Source: Actinomycetes bacterium
GTDB lineage: Bacteria > Actinomycetota > Coriobacteriia > Anaerosomatales > Anaerosomataceae
DNA length: 37,778 bases
Assembly: GCA_021373175.1 (NCBI GenBank)
Contig: JAJFTE010000019.1
Coordinates: forward strand, 1 to 37,778
Direction of reading: 5' to 3'
Shown here: positions 8,599-17,392 of the stretch, one piece after another
How positions within the stretch are numbered: the stretch's first letter is position 1
How the letters are laid out: each line of letters begins with the position of its first letter
Made by a program: the position numbers and the translations under genes
The notes under the pieces: model-generated
What the model saw: only the letters and a program-made list of their open reading frames with translations
Told to the model about the DNA's origin: nothing
Databases searched by the model: none

Positions 8599-9456
8599 TC
8601 AGCGCTGCGTGCTGCGTGCACGCAGCGCCTTGAGCACCTTCACGTTGATCTCATCCTTCTCGGGTACCTCGCCGGACATCTCGACGATCGCCGCAGCCGC
8701 GCTCAAGCGGGGATCGGCGAACATCGACTCGAAGCCCGCGGTGCCAATGGTCCCGGCACCGACCCAGGCATGTCGATCGCGGTGTTGGCCCGCTGCGTAA
8801 GCCGAATCGTTCGCGTGGACGACGCCGATGCGGTCCGCCCCGCAGCACCGTTCAAGGCCCGTCGTGAAGGCATGCCAGCCCACCGGCGTCGACAGGTCCC
8901 ATCCGGCTGCGTGCGCGTGACAGCTGTCAAGACAGACGCCGAGGCGTTCCTTCCACTGCACGTCAAGTATGCCGAGGACCGCCCCAAGCTCCTCGGGCCC
9001 GGTTCCGAACGTGCTGCCGGCGCCCGCGGTGTTCTCCAGGAGCAAGACGCCGGCCGGCGCCGTCTCCAGCGCAAGGCGGACGCCATCGGCGATCCTCCGT
9101 GCGCCGGCTTCAAGGTCGCCGCTGCGGTTCGTGCCCGTGTGGGTGACGGTCGCGTCGGCTCCCATGAGCGCGGCACGATCGAGCTCGTCAGCGAGCGCCC
9201 GCCACGATCGCTCCCAAAGCGCGTCGTCTTCAGACCCGAGGTTTATGAGATACGCCGTGTGCGTGCAGACGAAGCCGATGCCTGAGCGTTCGCGGCGGTC
9301 GCGAAACGCCGCGCCTGTCTCGGCAGACGTGGGCTTGGCGCGCCACTGTTGCGGCGACTTGGCGAAGACCTGGATAGCCTCGCAGCCGACGGTCTCGGCA
9401 TAGTCGATCGACTGTGGGAAACCCGCGGCGACGCTGACGTGAGCACCGATGAGCAC
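8599..9456 (-). CDS. nfo: Endonuclease IV (abasic-site endonuclease Nfo)
   Basis: Zinc-dependent AP endonuclease of base excision repair: it cuts 5' to abasic sites and trims damaged 3' ends. The protein (285 residues) begins MLIGAHVSVAAGFPQSIDYA, the family start. All segments that supply the three-zinc site are present: THTAYLINLGS, THTGT, LLENTAGAGS, CLDSCHAHAAGWDL, HANDS, DRHAWVGAG and EMSGE. The start chosen is GTG 9456 because GAAAGGAG lies 5 nt before it; an upstream in-frame ATG (9471) would contain that ribosome site. It is divergent from dinB across 76 bp. Its last codons contain a 10 bp inverted repeat (8602-8611/8619-8628). Confidence 0.95.
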   Translation of the reverse strand: MLIGAHVSVAAGFPQSIDYAETVGCEAIQVFAKSPQQWRAKPTSAETGAAFRDRRERSGIGFVCTHTAYLINLGSEDDALWERSWRALADELDRAALMGADATVTHTGTNRSGDLEAGARRIADGVRLALETAPAGVLLLENTAGAGSTFGTGPEELGAVLGILDVQWKERLGVCLDSCHAHAAGWDLSTPVGWHAFTTGLERCCGADRIGVVHANDSAYAAGQHRDRHAWVGAGTIGTAGFESMFADPRLSAAAAIVEMSGEVPEKDEINVKVLKALRARSTQR

Positions 9457-9481
9457 GTGCGCTCCTTTCATGGAGGGTATC

Positions 9482-9510
9482 AGTCTATCAATCACAGGGG
9501 CGCGTGTCGC
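9482..9510 (-). promoter_or_regulatory. Promoter of nfo
   Basis: On the minus strand, TGA-TAGACT gives an extended -10 (9482-9490), with GCGACA (9505-9510) 17 bp upstream as a partial -35. The start would be near 9475. No LexA box is seen in the nfo-dinB gap. Confidence 0.5.
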
Positions 9511-9520
9511 AGCCGCGCAT

Positions 9521-9526
9521 TACACT
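9521..9526 (+). promoter_or_regulatory. Possible -10 box of dinB
   Basis: TACACT ends 7 bp before the ATG at 9533, so the transcript could be leaderless; no convincing ribosome site lies between them. No -35 is evident. Confidence 0.35.
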
Positions 9527-9532
9527 GGGAAC

Positions 9533-10756
9533 ATGACGCAGACACCCGACAGACCGTGGACCGGACGCGCCGTGCTGCATGTGGACATGGACGCGTTTTT
9601 CGCCTCGGTCGAACAACTCGATCACCCCGCGTGGCGCGGCAAACCCGTGATCGTGGGCGGCGACCCGTCACGTCGCGGGGTGGTCTCCACCTGCTCGTAC
9701 GAGGCGCGTGTCTTCGGCGTTCGCTCGGCGATGCCCTCGACGCAGGCTGCGCGGTTGTGCCCGGACGCCGTCTGGGTGTCGTCGAACTTCGGCCGCTACG
9801 CTGAGCTGTCGCGTGCGATACGCGACGTTCTCGAGCGTCAGACGCCGGATGTGGAGCCCACCTCCATCGACGAGGCGTACCTCGATGCGACGCCCGGCGC
9901 CACCGGCGAGCATCCGGTGCTCGTCGCCCATCGCATTCAAGCCGAGGTCGACGCGCTCGGGCTTTCCTGCTCGATCGGCGTTGCATCCTCCAAGACGGTC
10001 GCGAAGATCGCGTCGGACCATGACAAGCCGCACGGTATCACCGTCGTGTGGCCCGGCGAGGAGGCGGCGTTCCTCTCGCCGCTACCGGTGGGAGCGCTTC
10101 CCGGCGTGGGGAAAAGCACGGAAGCGCGATTGGGGCGCATCGGGATCAGGCGTCTGGGCGAGCTTGCGGCGCTCGACGACGCGACCGCGCGTGAGGTGCT
10201 CGGCAACTTCGGGCCGGAGCTGGTGGCGCGAGCGCGGGGCATCGATCCCCGGCCGGTGCGCTACGAGCGCGAGGCGAAGTCGGTCTCCAACGAGCACACG
10301 TTCGCGACCGACGTGCGCCAGCGCGATGAGGTCGAGCGCGCGCTCGCGGGCCTGGCCGCTCACGTAGCCGCGCGACTGCGAGCCGCCGGCCTGTCTGCGC
10401 GCACGTTCACCGTGAAGCTTCGCTATGCCGACTTCACGACGCCGACGATCAGGCGCACCGTGGATGTCCCGACCGATCTCGAGGACGAGATGCTGCCGGT
10501 CGCGCTCTCGCTGCTGCGTTCTGCCTGGACGCCAGGCGCAGGGCTGCGGCTGATCGGCTTCGGGGCGAGCGGCTTCGAGCAGGCCGCAGTGCAGCTCGAC
10601 TTGTTCGCCGAGACCCTCGAGGCCGGTCGCAGGCCGCAGCGCAAGGCGCTTGCCGAGGGGCTCGACGCCGTGAAGAAGCGCTTCGGCGAGGACGCCATCC
10701 ACCGTGGCGTCGCCCGGGCGCCCGAACGCCCGGACCCTGACACTCACCCGTCGTAG
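9533..10756 (+). CDS. dinB: DNA polymerase IV (DinB, Y-family)
   Basis: Error-prone translesion polymerase, 407 residues. Catalytic residues are intact: D18/D20 in HVDMDAFFASVE and D113-E114 in PTSIDEAYLD. The YEARVFGVRSAMP finger motif, the helix-hairpin-helix LPGVGKSTEARL and the little-finger domain follow. A beta-clamp binding motif QLDLF lies near the C-terminus. Intact catalytic acids argue for a true DinB and against the inactive ImuB type. The ATG at 9533 is placed just before the conserved start. Its 3' end overlaps the 3' end of the convergent dnaE2 by 13 bp. It has no LexA box of its own that I can find. Confidence 0.95.
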   Translation: MTQTPDRPWTGRAVLHVDMDAFFASVEQLDHPAWRGKPVIVGGDPSRRGVVSTCSYEARVFGVRSAMPSTQAARLCPDAVWVSSNFGRYAELSRAIRDVLERQTPDVEPTSIDEAYLDATPGATGEHPVLVAHRIQAEVDALGLSCSIGVASSKTVAKIASDHDKPHGITVVWPGEEAAFLSPLPVGALPGVGKSTEARLGRIGIRRLGELAALDDATAREVLGNFGPELVARARGIDPRPVRYEREAKSVSNEHTFATDVRQRDEVERALAGLAAHVAARLRAAGLSARTFTVKLRYADFTTPTIRRTVDVPTDLEDEMLPVALSLLRSAWTPGAGLRLIGFGASGFEQAAVQLDLFAETLEAGRRPQRKALAEGLDAVKKRFGEDAIHRGVARAPERPDPDTHPS

Positions 10757-13700
10757 AGGTCCGCTGCCGCCCACGACTCCTCCTCGGGCGCGCCTGCTCC
10801 GCCGAGGGAGGGTCCCATCGGACCGCTCGGCACACCGCGCCGCATGCGCACGGGCACGCCGCTTGCGGTGCGCACCACATAGGGCTCGACGCGGTCCGCG
10901 ATGATCGCGATGCCGCGTTCCTGATTGTTCTGCAGCACGCCTTCGACCACGTACGCGCGGTGTTTCACGATCGTTTCCCCCGCCCGGTTGAGCGCGTCTT
11001 CGAACACCACGACATCCAGGAGACCGGTCGGGTCCTCGAGCGTGAGGAAGCACGTGCGCTTGCCCGAGCGGGTCCGTGGCGTCTGTGCGCGCTCGCGCAC
11101 GCCGGCCACGCGCACGCGGGTGCGGTCCGCCAGTCTCGGCAGGTCGCGAGCCCATGTGACGCCCCGGCGCTCAAGGTCCGCGCGGGCGAGCGCGAGCGGG
11201 TGGCACTCGAGCGAGAGTCCCACGATCTCGAGTTCCGCCGATAGACGACGCGCGCGCGACCAGCCCGAGACGTGCGTCGGGTCCTCGGGCGTGCGCGCTT
11301 TGGCGGGTGCGAGCACGAGCACGTCGTCGCCGGCCACGCCCTCACGCGCGATGACCGCCTTCATCTCGGGCAGGAGTGCGAGGAGTTCGTCGCGCGTGGG
11401 CGGACGCCCGGCGTCTGTCGAGCCGAGGCCGTCGAGCGCTCCCACGCGGATGAGACTCTCGGCGGCGGGCGCCTCGGCACGCGTACGGCGCAGGAAGTCC
11501 GCGAGGTCACGGAAGGGACGCACGTCCTGCTCGCGTTCGATCGCGGAAAGCAGGCGCTGCGTCATCTCGTGGACGTCGCGCAGCCCGACGCGGATGGAGC
11601 GGCCGTCGTCTTCGACCGTGTAACGGCCGCGCGACGCGTTCACGTGCGGCGGCAGGATGCCGATGCCGTGACGCCGGGCGTCGTTCACCACAAGGCGCGG
11701 CGTATAGAAGCCCATCGGCTCGTTGTTGAGGATCGAGGCGGCGAATTCGGCCGGGTAATAACGCTTGAGCCACGCGCTTGCATACGAGACGACCGCGAAG
11801 CACGCCGCGTGCGCCTTGCAGAAGCCGTACGCCGCGAAGCCCTGCAGCTGGCGAAACGCCTCCTCGGCCGCGTCGCGCGCTACGCCGAGACCCACCGCGC
11901 GCGTCACGAAGTGGCCGTGAATCGCCTCCATCTCCTCGCGGGAGCGGCCCTTGGTCATCGCGCGGCGCAGGCTATCCGCCTCGGCAAGTGAGAAGCCGGC
12001 GATCGCGGAAGCGACGCGGAGCACCTGCTCCTGGTACAGGATGACGCCGTAGCTGTCGCGCAGCACCTCGCCCATGGCAGGATGCGGCACACGCACCGGC
12101 TCGATGCCATGGCGACGGCGGATGAACGGCGTGATCATCTCGGCTTCAAGCGGGCCGGGGCGAAAGAGCGAGATCGCGGCGATGATGTCCTCGAAATCGC
12201 GCTCCTTCAGGCGCATCGCGAGGTTGCGCTGGCCGCTGCTTTCCAGCTGGAACATCCCCACCGTGTCCGCCGAGGCGATGAGCTCGTAGACCGACGGGTC
12301 GTCGGGCACAAGCTCGAACGGCTCGGGCACCGCGTCCGTGCCCACGCGTGAGCGGGCGAGCTCGACGGTATCGCTGATCGCTGAATGCATCCGCAGACCC
12401 AAGATGTCCATCTTCACCAGGCCGAGCGCCTCGATGTCGTCCTTGTCGTACTGCGAGACCACGACGCCTTTGGCCGCCCACTGCAGCGGCATCCAGGTGT
12501 CGATCGGCTCGCGCGTGATGATGAAGCCGCCGAGGTGTGTCCCCAGGTGCATCGGGCAGCCCGAGAGCTCCTCGGCAAGCTCGGTGAGAAGGCCGTAGCG
12601 CGCGGTGTCCTTGAGCGGGTGGCTCGCGCACTCAGGGTACGTGTCGAGCACCTCGCGCAGGCGGTGCGCGCTCACCCATGGCAGGTGGCGCGAGAGCGAG
12701 TTCACCTCGTCCGGCGGCAGCTCGAAGGCACGCGCGACGGTGCGCACGGCACCGCGAGCGGTCATCGTCTGCACGGTCGCCACCATCGCCACGTGCTCGC
12801 TCCCAAACCGCCGGTAGATGTATTCGATGACCTCGTCGCGGCGGCGCGAATCGAAGTCCACGTCGATGTCGGGCATCTGACGACGCTCCGGGTTGAGGAA
12901 GCGCTCGAAGAGCAGGTCGTGCCGGATCGGGTCGGCGTCGGTGATGCCGAGCAAGTAGGTGACGATGCTGTCGCCGGCGCTCCCCCGCCCTGAGCAGCGG
13001 ATGCCGCGGGAGCGGGCGAAATCCACGATGTCTTTCACCACGAGGAAGTATTCCGAAAAGCCAAGGTCCTGGATGACCGAGAGCTCGTGCTGCAGACGCG
13101 CGACCGAGGCCGGCGTCACCGGCCGGTAACGGCGCTCGAGACCCTGCCACGCCGCCTTCGCGAGCGTGGAGTACGGGGTCTCGCCCGGAGGAACCTTGGC
13201 GCCCGGGAAGTGGAACGCGCCAAGGCCGAGGTCCAGGTTGCAGCGCTCGGCGATCGCAAGCGTGGCATCGCACGCCTGCGGCAGGTCGGCGAACAGGCGC
13301 CGCATCTCGCCCGCGGGCTTAAACCAGAGTTCGGCGTTCTGGCGTTCGTACGGCCCGGGTAACCCGCCGCCCGCGCCCGCCGCCGAGAGCACGTCGTGCA
13401 GCCGGAACTGACGACGTTCGACGTAGTGGACGTTGTTGGTGGCGACGACCGGCAGGTGCAGCCGCTGTGCGATGGCCGCAAGGCCGCTCACGTAGCGAGG
13501 GCTTTCCGGCGTGAGCAGCTGCATGAGCTCTACGTAGAAGTCACCGGGCGCGAAACAGCGCGACAGGCGTTTGAGCGTCGCCTCCGCGCGCCACCCCAGA
13601 CCCGCCAGCACGGCCGCGCCAGCTTCGCCGTTCGTGCAGCCCGACAGCCCGATGAGGCCTTCCGAGTGCCTGGCAAGGTCCGCGAGCGGCACGACCGAGG

Positions 13701-14100
13701 GCTCCTCGGCGCTGCGCACATGAGCACGCGCGAGCAGGCCGCACAGGTTGCGGTAGCCGGTCATGTCCTTCACGAGCAGCGTGAGGTGGAAGCCGCGTCC
13801 CGCGGCACGCCCGAAGCCCACCGCCGCCGGGATGTGCAGACGCTCTTCGGGCGGCAGGTCGCCCTCTTCACCGAAGAGCCCGGCCGTCTCGACGACGACC
13901 TCGGCGCCGATGATCGGGCGGATGCCGGCCATGAGCGCTGCGCGATAGAAGCGGATCGCACCGTACAGGCCCTGGTGGTCGGTGAGCGCGAGTGCCGGCA
14001 TGCCGAGCTCGACGGCGCGACCGATGAGCGCATCGAGGTTGGCCGCGCCGTCCATGAAGCTGAACCGCGAATGGACGTGCAGATGCACGAAACCGCTCAT
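10744..14100 (-). CDS. dnaE2: Error-prone DNA polymerase DnaE2 (ImuC)
   Basis: C-family replicative-type polymerase of 1118 residues used in SOS mutagenesis. It starts with a PHP domain (FVHLHVHSRFSFMDGA, LALTDHQGLYG). The core includes IRCSGRGSAGDSIVTYLLG, LFERFLNPERRQ and the catalytic PDIDVDFDSRRRDEV near residue 411. HhH and OB-fold regions follow, including CFLTLEDPTGLLDVVVFED. The GRGSAGDS and FLNPERRQMPDIDVDFD context and the SOS-controlled setting point to DnaE2 over DnaE1. It begins 9 bp after the DUF6504-like gene and shares its LexA-controlled promoter. No imuA or imuB is adjacent. It is convergent with dinB. Confidence 0.93.
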   Translation of the reverse strand: MSGFVHLHVHSRFSFMDGAANLDALIGRAVELGMPALALTDHQGLYGAIRFYRAALMAGIRPIIGAEVVVETAGLFGEEGDLPPEERLHIPAAVGFGRAAGRGFHLTLLVKDMTGYRNLCGLLARAHVRSAEEPSVVPLADLARHSEGLIGLSGCTNGEAGAAVLAGLGWRAEATLKRLSRCFAPGDFYVELMQLLTPESPRYVSGLAAIAQRLHLPVVATNNVHYVERRQFRLHDVLSAAGAGGGLPGPYERQNAELWFKPAGEMRRLFADLPQACDATLAIAERCNLDLGLGAFHFPGAKVPPGETPYSTLAKAAWQGLERRYRPVTPASVARLQHELSVIQDLGFSEYFLVVKDIVDFARSRGIRCSGRGSAGDSIVTYLLGITDADPIRHDLLFERFLNPERRQMPDIDVDFDSRRRDEVIEYIYRRFGSEHVAMVATVQTMTARGAVRTVARAFELPPDEVNSLSRHLPWVSAHRLREVLDTYPECASHPLKDTARYGLLTELAEELSGCPMHLGTHLGGFIITREPIDTWMPLQWAAKGVVVSQYDKDDIEALGLVKMDILGLRMHSAISDTVELARSRVGTDAVPEPFELVPDDPSVYELIASADTVGMFQLESSGQRNLAMRLKERDFEDIIAAISLFRPGPLEAEMITPFIRRRHGIEPVRVPHPAMGEVLRDSYGVILYQEQVLRVASAIAGFSLAEADSLRRAMTKGRSREEMEAIHGHFVTRAVGLGVARDAAEEAFRQLQGFAAYGFCKAHAACFAVVSYASAWLKRYYPAEFAASILNNEPMGFYTPRLVVNDARRHGIGILPPHVNASRGRYTVEDDGRSIRVGLRDVHEMTQRLLSAIEREQDVRPFRDLADFLRRTRAEAPAAESLIRVGALDGLGSTDAGRPPTRDELLALLPEMKAVIAREGVAGDDVLVLAPAKARTPEDPTHVSGWSRARRLSAELEIVGLSLECHPLALARADLERRGVTWARDLPRLADRTRVRVAGVRERAQTPRTRSGKRTCFLTLEDPTGLLDVVVFEDALNRAGETIVKHRAYVVEGVLQNNQERGIAIIADRVEPYVVRTASGVPVRMRRGVPSGPMGPSLGGAGAPEEESWAAADLYDG

Positions 14101-14109
14101 AGCCGCCGG

Positions 14110-14529
14110 CTAGTCGACGACGCCGACAAGAAGCCACCGGCCCGTCAGACAGTCGTAGGCGAGATCGTAAAGGCCGCCTCGGGCAAGCACCCGGAAGCAT
14201 CGCCGGCTCAGACGGGTCCGCGGGTCCCACCATGCACGCTCGATCGTCCACGTCTGCACGAGCGCATCGACGGTATATCGTTTTCCGTTCATCTGAAACG
14301 TCGCCGGTGCCCGTCGCGCGCCGTTCCAGATGACCTCCACCTCCATCTCGCGCCGCTTGCCACTATGCCCCGACGTCCCAGAAGCGATCTGGGATCCGCG
14401 CACGATCCACGGGCTACGGAGCAGCTCGACGATGACCGGCCTGCGCGCGTCTCGGCCACTGAACAAATCGAGCGGCTGACCGGCCTCTTTCGCGGGATCG
14501 AACCTTTTGATAGCGCTGTTGCGGCCCAT
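14110..14529 (-). CDS. DUF6504-like protein, first gene of the SOS operon
   Basis: 139 residues, cytosolic, no known activity. The N-terminus (MGRNSAIKRFDPAKEAGQPL) is basic and polar. The C-terminal half (FQMNGKRYTVDALVQTWTIE, AWWDP, CFRVLARGGLYDLAYD, GRWLLVGVVD) resembles the DUF6504 family of actinobacteria, which I recall as neighbouring translesion polymerase genes. ATG 14529 lies about 73 nt after the LexA-box promoter; a weak AAAGAGAG ribosome site precedes it. It is 9 bp upstream of dnaE2 on the same strand, so it should be damage-induced with it. An accessory role for DnaE2/DinB is inference. Confidence 0.75.
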   Translation of the reverse strand: MGRNSAIKRFDPAKEAGQPLDLFSGRDARRPVIVELLRSPWIVRGSQIASGTSGHSGKRREMEVEVIWNGARRAPATFQMNGKRYTVDALVQTWTIERAWWDPRTRLSRRCFRVLARGGLYDLAYDCLTGRWLLVGVVD

Positions 14530-14601: not shown

Positions 14602-14630
14602 AGTATATCGAACGTATGTTCGATATACAA
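14602..14630 (-). promoter_or_regulatory. SOS promoter with LexA box in the spacer
   Basis: Minus strand: -35 TTGTAT (14625-14630), 17 bp spacer, -10 TATACT (14602-14607). The spacer holds CGAACATACGTTCG (14609-14622), a perfect match to the Gram-positive/actinobacterial LexA consensus CGAAC-RNRY-GTTCG. The symmetry extends to 11 bp per arm (14603-14628). A repressor here would block polymerase directly. It controls the DUF6504-like gene and dnaE2. Confidence 0.92.
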
Positions 14631-14681: not shown

Positions 14682-16712
14682 CTACGCCCAACCGAGCGCG
14701 GGCAGGACGCGCGCGAAGACGCCACCGGCCAGCAGCGCCACGGCAACGGTGAACCCGACGATGGCCGCCGTCCTCGCCCACCCGTGCTGACGCACGAGCA
14801 CGGTGATGGTGGAGACGCACGGTACCGCGAGCGTGTTCACGAGCGCGTACACGAACAGGTTCGTGGGCGTCATGAACGACGAGAGGTCGCTCGCTCCCGC
14901 ACCAAGCGTCACGACCGCCATCGTCACCAGCAGCTGCAGCGCGAGTTCCTTGCGCAGCGTGCCGAGCACAAGCGTGAGCCCCGCGATCGCGGGCAAGCCA
15001 AGCCAGCCGACGACGACCGGACTGAGCGGCCCGGCGAGCTTCCAGAGCCAGCCCGTTTCGTAGAGCGTGCCAACGACCAGACTGCCCACGATGACGATCG
15101 GTGTCGCCACGAACAAGAACTCCCTGAACTGCGCCCACGCCTTCGTGAGGATCCCCCGCAGCCGCGGACGCCGGAACCGGAACATCTCCATCACCAGGCC
15201 ACCGGTGTGCCCCGGGAACAGGCGGTTCATCCCCAGGCCCGTCGCGATGTCGATGGCGAAGACCACCGCGAACACGCCCAGCGCGGGCTGCCAGCCGATG
15301 TAGTGCCCCACCGCGCCCAGGATCACCGCCGTCCGCGCGCTGCACGGCACCATCGCGATGAGCGTCGAGGCGATCAGCCGCTCGCGTTTACTCGGCAGAT
15401 CGCGTACCGAGAGGATCGCCGGGACACTGCACCCCGCGGCCGCCACCAGCGGCAAGAGCGTCCGCCCATGGAGACCCAGGCGATGCATCACGCGGTCGGT
15501 GAGAAACGCAAGCGAGTTGAGATATCCCGAGTCTTCAAGGACGGCCAACAGCACATAGAAGGTGAGGATGTACGGCAGGCCGATGGAAAGCGATGCCTCG
15601 ATCCCCGCGTCGAGTCCCCATCGCAGAATCGCCGCGAGCGTCCCGGTGCCTGCAACGGCATGGATCAGGCCCCCGATCGCAGGCGATGCGAAGGCGGCCC
15701 ATAGCCGGGAGAAGCCGGTGGAAAGAGCATCACCCACCACGAACAGAAATCCGAAGACCAGCGCCATCACGGCGACCACGAGCGGCACGCCGGTCTTGGG
15801 CGATGTGGTGAACGACCACAGGTCGCGGGGGCCCCTTCTCGGCCCGCCCTCACGGACGCGCGTCACCTCCTCGGCTATGCTGCCAGCCACGCCGTGGCGC
15901 TCGCGCGCAAGCGTCACGTGCGGCGGCTCACCGAAGGCCGCTTCGCTCGCTGACCGCGCCCGAGCTGCCGCACCCGCGACAGACGCGATGCCCGCAGCGG
16001 TGCCAAGAAGGTCCGGCGCGCCTTCGAAGAGCAGAAGCGCCAACGCGCGCGGCGTGAACTCGGCGGGGCGCTCGGCAAGACCCGCCGCAGCGGCGACGAC
16101 CGGCCCCAACACAGACTCGAATGGCGGCTCATATGCGAAGGCGTCCGGCGTCCGGCGCTCGTCGGCCACATCGAGGGCCTCTCGGAGAACAGCGTCCACT
16201 CCTTCGCCCACGTTCGCGATGATCGGAACGACTGGGGCCCCGATGCGTGCGGCAAGCGCCACGGCATCGATGTCGATGCCGTGGCGCTCGGCCTCGTCCA
16301 CAAGGTTGAGCGCTACGACAAGCGGCGCGCCCAGGTCGACCACCTGCAGTACGAGATACAGGTTGCGTGCCAGATTCGTGGCGTCAACGACCACGATCGC
16401 GACGTCAGGACGCAAATCGACAAGCGCGCGGCGCGTGACCGTCGACTCGGCCGCGTGATCGCTCAGGCTATACGTCCCCGGCAAATCGACGATGATCGCC
16501 GTGCGCGATGCGACAAGCGTCTCTCCCAGATTCATCGTGACGGTCGTTCCCGGGTAGTGAGCGGTCTCGACTCCAAGGCCGGTCAGCCGATTGAACAGGC
16601 TCGACTTGCCCACGTTCGGGTTGCCGAGCAGCGCGACCACGGGCGCGCCGTCGCGCAGTGCCGCGATCGCGGCGACAGGGTCATCGTCGGGGCCCAGGGC
16701 GATCCGGCTCAC
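14682..16712 (-). CDS. feoB: Ferrous iron transporter FeoB
   Basis: Inner-membrane Fe(II) uptake protein, 676 residues. The cytosolic G domain carries G1 GNPNVGKS (30-37), G3 DLPG (76-79) and the FeoB-style G4 NLVD (136-139). A helical spacer follows, then the membrane domain with two Gate regions; the conserved GCSVPAILSVRDLPSKRERL and MVPCSAR motifs are present. Several hydrophobic helices run to the C-terminus (VGFTVAVALLAGGVFARVLP). Its start overlaps the stop of the DtxR-family gene by 4 bp (ATGA), so the two are translationally coupled. No separate feoA is visible. Confidence 0.95.
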   Translation of the reverse strand: MSRIALGPDDDPVAAIAALRDGAPVVALLGNPNVGKSSLFNRLTGLGVETAHYPGTTVTMNLGETLVASRTAIIVDLPGTYSLSDHAAESTVTRRALVDLRPDVAIVVVDATNLARNLYLVLQVVDLGAPLVVALNLVDEAERHGIDIDAVALAARIGAPVVPIIANVGEGVDAVLREALDVADERRTPDAFAYEPPFESVLGPVVAAAAGLAERPAEFTPRALALLLFEGAPDLLGTAAGIASVAGAAARARSASEAAFGEPPHVTLARERHGVAGSIAEEVTRVREGGPRRGPRDLWSFTTSPKTGVPLVVAVMALVFGFLFVVGDALSTGFSRLWAAFASPAIGGLIHAVAGTGTLAAILRWGLDAGIEASLSIGLPYILTFYVLLAVLEDSGYLNSLAFLTDRVMHRLGLHGRTLLPLVAAAGCSVPAILSVRDLPSKRERLIASTLIAMVPCSARTAVILGAVGHYIGWQPALGVFAVVFAIDIATGLGMNRLFPGHTGGLVMEMFRFRRPRLRGILTKAWAQFREFLFVATPIVIVGSLVVGTLYETGWLWKLAGPLSPVVVGWLGLPAIAGLTLVLGTLRKELALQLLVTMAVVTLGAGASDLSSFMTPTNLFVYALVNTLAVPCVSTITVLVRQHGWARTAAIVGFTVAVALLAGGVFARVLPALGWA

Positions 16713-17392
16713 TGCTTGCGACGTCCCCTTCCGCGGCCCGCCATGGCGGGCGCGTCAACGACGATCTTCCTCGCGATGTCGCGGCCAAGCGCATACCGGG
16801 AACCGCCGACCTCCACCATAAGCGGCCCCTGGAACGGAGCGACATCGCACACTTTCACGCGCGTCCCGGGATACATGCCCAGCGACGCCAGATAGGTGAG
16901 CAGCCCCTCGGCCTCTTCATCGATGCGTACGATCTCGACATCAGCTCCGGCACCGAAGTCGCAGAGCGGCTCGCCTGTTGGCGCCGCCACCGTTCCTTCC
17001 GCCGAGGGGATCGGATGCCCGTGCGGGCAGACCTCCGGGTTCTCCAGGTAGGTCTCCAGTGCGGCCTGAACCTTTGGCGACAGCGCATGTTCGAGCCTGC
17101 ACGCCTCTTCATGCACGTCTTCCCAGGGTATGCCGAGCACGTCGACCAACAGGCGTTCCGCCAGCCGATGTCTGCGGATGATGCTGAGGGCCTCAGTCCG
17201 TCCGGCGGGCGTGAGCTCGACACCACCTGCCGGACGTGTGATGAGGCCGCGAGCCTTCAGACGCTTCAGCGCGGAGGTGACCGTCGGCGCCGAGACAGCC
17301 ATCGCGTCCGCAAGGCGTGAGGGACGCACGTCGTCGTGCTCGGCGAGCTTGTAGATCGCTTCGAGGTACTCCTCAAGGGTTTCGCTCGGCAT
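16709..17392 (-). CDS. DtxR/IdeR-family iron-dependent repressor with SH3-like (FeoA) domain
   Basis: 227 residues, the DtxR length, with three domains: a winged helix (about 1-65, SRLADAMAVSAPTVTSALKR), a dimerisation and metal domain (66-140), and a C-terminal SH3/FeoA-like domain (about 150-215). Metal ligands match the DtxR pattern: H75, E79, H94, C98, E101 and H102 (HEEACRLEH). The cysteine favours iron over manganese sensing. ATG 17392 follows GGAGG by 7 nt. It is the first gene of an operon with feoB, so it probably represses iron uptake, and itself, when iron is plentiful. Confidence 0.88.
   Translation of the reverse strand: MPSETLEEYLEAIYKLAEHDDVRPSRLADAMAVSAPTVTSALKRLKARGLITRPAGGVELTPAGRTEALSIIRRHRLAERLLVDVLGIPWEDVHEEACRLEHALSPKVQAALETYLENPEVCPHGHPIPSAEGTVAAPTGEPLCDFGAGADVEIVRIDEEAEGLLTYLASLGMYPGTRVKVCDVAPFQGPLMVEVGGSRYALGRDIARKIVVDAPAMAGRGRGRRKQ

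Follow-up and report, generated by a model that had tools for sequence, protein, structure and literature searches.

The DUF6504-dnaE2 operon described here probably encodes a LexA-induced mutasome in which a small protein acts as a tether between the polymerase DnaE2, which it binds, and the beta clamp, both contacts being predicted. The operon lies in the window (the whole stretch of 37,778 nucleotides of contig JAJFTE010000019.1 that was analysed), and the features concerned are the following:

14602 to 14630, minus strand: promoter with a -35 element TTGTAT (14630-14625), a 17-bp spacer (14624-14608) and a -10 element TATACT (14607-14602), read directly from the sequence.
14609 to 14622, minus strand: LexA operator CGAACATACGTTCG, an exact match within the promoter spacer.
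14110 to 14529, minus strand: DUF6504 gene, 139 residues, a stand-alone ImuB-C domain at about residues 61-139 and a conserved N-terminal tail (PF20114, AlphaFold).
14461 to 14478, minus strand: QPLDLF, codons 18-23 of the DUF6504 gene, candidate beta-clamp-binding motif in the disordered tail (order alignment, AlphaFold).
10744 to 14100, minus strand: dnaE2, a C-family polymerase of 1118 residues with catalytic PDIDVDF and KMDILG kept, a D to N change in the PHP site and the clamp loop motif absent (alignment with DnaE1 of the same genome).
9449 to 10756, plus strand: dinB, convergent to dnaE2, a predicted active Y-family polymerase that contains QLDLF and a RecA-NT-like motif; the sole Y-family gene in the genome and a neighbour outside the LexA operon.

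The promoter reads exactly as the preliminary description had it, TTGTAT-N17-TATACT with a LexA box in the spacer. The palindrome GTATATCGAAC-ATAC-GTTCGATATAC at 14628-14603 has arms of 11 bp. The window contains a single exact CGAACRNNYGTTCG, and the whole genome (2.15 Mb) a single copy of the 20-nt core TATCGAACN4GTTCGATA. The LexA core is CGAACN4GTTCG. Since the outer portions of the arms coincide with the -35 and -10 elements and are missing from the recA and lexA boxes, they are probably promoter sequence rather than operator. The shorter pattern is found nine times in the genome and a reversed control pattern 12 times. This genome-wide count is close to chance, and the evidence therefore consists of the position of the site and its conservation. 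CGAACN4GTTCG boxes are present directly 5' of lexA (a single-copy gene), recA, uvrA, and a UvrD-like helicase gene, and at least one of the nine lies inside a coding sequence (C59:2889). Of 56 loci in the order, 55 have an exact box at a distance of 47 to 116 bp upstream of the DUF6504 start, usually flanked by TTGTAT and TATACT; in a background set of 2,240 windows of 150 bp, drawn at random from these loci with the true sites included, 35 contained one. Chance origin of the palindrome is ruled out by this order-wide conservation. The operator overlaps the promoter and matches the lexA and recA operators of the same genome, as in a LexA regulon of the CGAACN4GTTCG type. LexA control of the operon is thus supported at the level of sequence, as is the earlier reading of the box as an SOS operator.

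Several other observations were made around these boxes. The upstream neighbours on this strand (14682-17392, minus strand) are iron genes of FeoB-like and DtxR-like type, with the SOS promoter between them and DUF6504. The lexA operator (L011, C74:34523-37536) is situated between lexA and a divergent gene whose small product combines a membrane segment with a LysM-like domain and resembles SOS division inhibitors of the YneA type. A LexA-like box, CGAACAGATGTTCG (L013, C112:892-3905, site 1501-1514), overlaps the start region of an unknown gene of 131 codons, a candidate new SOS gene. Another, CGAACACAAGTTCG (L006, C26:30398-33411, site 1501-1514), is found about 50 bp 5' of the gene for a secreted M23-like protein.

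Order-wide searches covered 67 genomes of Anaerosomatales (Coriobacteriia). The gene order of the window, DUF6504 followed by dnaE2 on the minus strand with dinB convergent, was compared with the other loci, and DUF6504 was immediately 5' of dnaE2 in all 53 (gap of 1-32 nt in 50). In three genomes (L157, L161, L162) the gap is 1.1 to 3.9 kb, with other sequence intervening. Both genes are present in 56 genomes and neither in seven. Of the four discordant genomes, one is 70% complete; in the other three the contig ends at DUF6504 and thereby excludes dnaE2. By this distribution, DUF6504 and DnaE2 are gained or lost together. Gene order and box conservation agree with the predicted operon of the two genes under the LexA box, and the survey for such pairs that the preliminary description proposed found them in most genomes of the order, with no ImuB among the 67 genomes.

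The genome encodes two DnaE proteins, and the replicative DnaE1 is separate, on contig C70. The window protein scored below the cut-offs of both the error-prone DnaE model (NF004225: 879.9 bits against 939) and the replicative model (NF004226: 921.7 bits against 1002), which are no part of the published DnaE2 definition; with neither NCBIfam model exceeded, the DnaE2 assignment rests on the tree and on the separate DnaE1. In the tree, DnaE2 proteins of the order group with one other member of the phylum (support 1.0) and with Rubrobacteria (0.998), apart from proteobacterial DnaE2 linked to ImuAB. The window protein is thus a second DnaE distinct from DnaE1, with polymerase active-site motifs recognisable by alignment, as expected of a DnaE2. 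The residue changed from D to N in its PHP site is N in 28 and D in 20 of the order's proteins.

The identity of the small protein follows from PF20114, which matches residues 65-138 (E=1.4e-5, 25.7 bits against a cut-off of 24.2). AlphaFold predicts a beta-barrel at residues 61-139, with pLDDT mostly >90, and an N-terminal part of largely low confidence with a helix at 26-37. PF20114 also extends to ImuB of Sinorhizobium, where it matches the C-terminus (residues 426-500, E=1.2e-4, slightly below the cut-off), and it exceeds the cut-off in the Caulobacter control genome, a match at the level of the genome. Because of these matches DUF6504 is assigned as a stand-alone form of the ImuB-C domain, a homology that is based on the PF20114 model and the published family. 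A profile HMM built from the DUF6504 proteins gave no significant match to single ImuB sequences. No solved structure resembling DUF6504 was found by sequence or by fold, which agrees with the description of ImuB-C as a new fold in the main text of PMC12926913. ImuB-C was already known to occur alone (Aravind 2013, PMC3765255). The name DUF6504 is not mentioned in the literature searched. Ahead of the clamp-like motif lies another conserved block, MGRNxAIKxF (residues 1-10; 14500-14529, minus strand); its partner is perhaps a Y-family polymerase, compare the YolD/YqjX arms.

ImuA and ImuB were detected neither in the genome of the window nor in the 67 genomes of the order, as the preliminary description had anticipated for this dnaE2. 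Exactly one Y-family gene is present in 62 of the 67 genomes and a second one in none, hence the absence of ImuB; in the genome of the window the sole Y-family gene is the putatively active dinB, and no imuB was found. No match to the ImuA model exceeded the cut-off in any genome of the order and all were far below it, a negative limited by the unproven sensitivity of the model, which is also under its cut-off in Caulobacter. The two matches in the genome of the window are recA and a RadA-sized (RadA-like) open reading frame. The suggestion that the small protein stands in for ImuA and ImuB holds in part. A role as accessory factor fits the ImuB-C homology and the DnaE2-[ImuB-C] modules described in the main text of PMC12926913, but the protein is no substitute for ImuA in its capacity as a RecA paralogue, a place that RecA itself would have to fill.

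The N-terminal tail of DUF6504 follows the pattern xxx[DEGT]L[FL] in all 55 proteins of the order. L22 is invariant in the 41 aligned sequences and F23 is present in 38, with a mean entropy of 0.19 bits at positions 22-23 against 2.1 at the variable flank 24-30. The motif region is predicted to be disordered (pLDDT < 50 at 18-20). E. coli delta (QAMSLF) and UmuD (TFPLF) contain similar clamp-binding peptides. The tail motif is one residue longer than the canonical QxxLF, and its initial Q is found in 35/55 tails, compared with 39/39 DinB proteins of the same order. A chance resemblance is an unlikely explanation, under which DnaE2 simply lost its internal clamp motif and works distributively: it would account for the incomplete conservation of the Q, but L and F are strongly conserved within an otherwise variable disordered tail. 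In mycobacteria the clamp motif of ImuB is essential for mutagenesis (PMC10421592).

The polymerase shows the reciprocal pattern. The clamp loop of DnaE1 reads QGSIF, which is lacking in DnaE2 of the same genome by alignment, and all DnaE2 proteins of the order with an intact post-HhH loop have EGVAGDDVLVLAP or a similar sequence there. QISLF, QEQVLL, and QLALL in DnaE2 proteins of the order were considered as clamp motifs and rejected, being situated in the polymerase core or in the helix before the loop. In the wider phylum, DUF6504 proteins encoded beside DnaE2 mostly start at the barrel, and a QLxLxL-type motif is present in the post-HhH loop of 27 of the 29 DnaE2 proteins adjoining a tail-less DUF6504. 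Rubrobacteria have a tail (EEPLF) together with a partial loop motif (QAELPL) and look intermediate between the loop and tail forms. On the tree, loop loss and tail gain appear as one or two events. The sequences that show the reciprocal pattern are therefore far from independent in a statistical sense, and a Fisher test of loop against tail was set aside on that ground. The simplest reading is a transfer of the clamp handle from polymerase to small partner. That this happened in Anaerosomatales and a sister lineage, leaving a minimal mutasome of two proteins whose small subunit would by itself govern the access of DnaE2 to the clamp, is a tentative proposal with slightly less than an even chance of being correct.

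In the proposed mechanism, DNA damage would lead to LexA cleavage and derepression of the two-gene mutagenesis cassette. The stand-alone ImuB-C barrel would bind DnaE2, probably at the PHP domain, as modelled for ImuB, and the flexible N-terminal tail, (Q)PLDLF, would insert into the pocket of the beta clamp. In this way the small protein would do the job of the C-terminal half of ImuB (contact with both the clamp and DnaE2) for a DnaE2 without its own clamp motif. ImuA would be replaced by RecA. DinB has clamp and RecA-NT-like motifs of its own and may either be part of the complex or work independently.

A larger role for DinB would make this a four-part mutasome of the published DnaE2-[ImuB-C]-PolY-RecA type, in which active DinB serves as the scaffold and as the contact to the clamp and RecA, and ImuB-C links DinB to DnaE2. 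Such modules (DnaE2, ImuB-C, active PolY and RecA), including one in Tessaracoccus lapidicaptus, were reported from Actinobacteria in February 2026 in the main text of PMC12926913. The motifs and the neighbourhood are present here: dinB is convergent in 39 of the 41 order loci with room for it, and clamp-like and RecA-NT-like motifs are found in all 39 DinB proteins (both catalytic-site patterns in 37). However, LexA control and co-retention of dinB were not found. No LexA box above background was found at dinB (a one-mismatch match in 3/39 loci), DinB is kept in at least six genomes that lost both DUF6504 and DnaE2, and its co-occurrence with DnaE2 is weak (Fisher p 0.16). By its distribution DinB is not tied to the pair, and the four-part arrangement is considered somewhat unlikely. 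The idea in the preliminary description that DinB supplies the clamp contact is, for the same reasons, less supported, and the small protein has a clamp-like motif of its own.

It is improbable that DUF6504 mainly acts as a DNA- or lesion-recognition domain guiding DnaE2 to damage, with another partner for the tail motif. This function was proposed for ImuB-C from gene context and charged residues (Aravind 2013, PMC3765255), but the 2026 models place ImuB-C on the PHP domain of DnaE2 (main text of PMC12926913), and the tail is conserved in a clamp-motif pattern.

The reading preferred here, a small protein that binds and tethers DnaE2, was compared with known systems. The central idea of the preliminary description is already published in general form, as seen in the main text of PMC12926913 (February 2026), which describes DnaE2-[ImuB-C] modules of Actinobacteria with DnaE2 and a stand-alone ImuB-C in genomes without ImuA and ImuB, as here. 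Unlike in those modules, a whole order of Coriobacteriia is concerned, dinB is convergent rather than in the operon, and the clamp-like motif is carried by the tail of ImuB-C instead of by DnaE2; a tail motif of ImuB-C is not mentioned in that main text. The ImuA-ImuB-DnaE2 mutasome of Mycobacterium and Caulobacter likewise has a LexA-controlled DnaE2 with an ImuB-C domain, and its ImuB also combines a clamp motif with ImuB-C. In the present case, however, there is no Y-family body and no ImuA, and the small protein corresponds to approximately the C-terminal half of ImuB only. The Kyrpidia-type operon (inactive PolY, ImuB-C, DnaE2; PMC6511836) shares the separate ImuB-C gene with DnaE2, whereas here the Y-family protein is predicted to be active and is encoded outside the operon. 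The Geobacter lexA-ImuB-C-PolY operon (PMC6511836, PMC3765255) also has an SOS-linked stand-alone ImuB-C, but it lacks DnaE2. Order-wide LexA control, joint retention, and the exchange between tail and loop were not found in the main texts of the earlier reports. The location of the clamp contact may be new.

DnaE2 mutasomes drive damage-induced mutagenesis. The cassette consists of two genes under an evident LexA switch, and a protein of 139 residues carries the candidate clamp tether; this would be a very simple form of DnaE2 mutasome. The prediction is that the polymerase is recruited to the clamp by the LDLF tail rather than by DnaE2 or DinB. If the relocation of the handle is true, it would suggest how a clamp motif and ImuB-C came together in ImuB.
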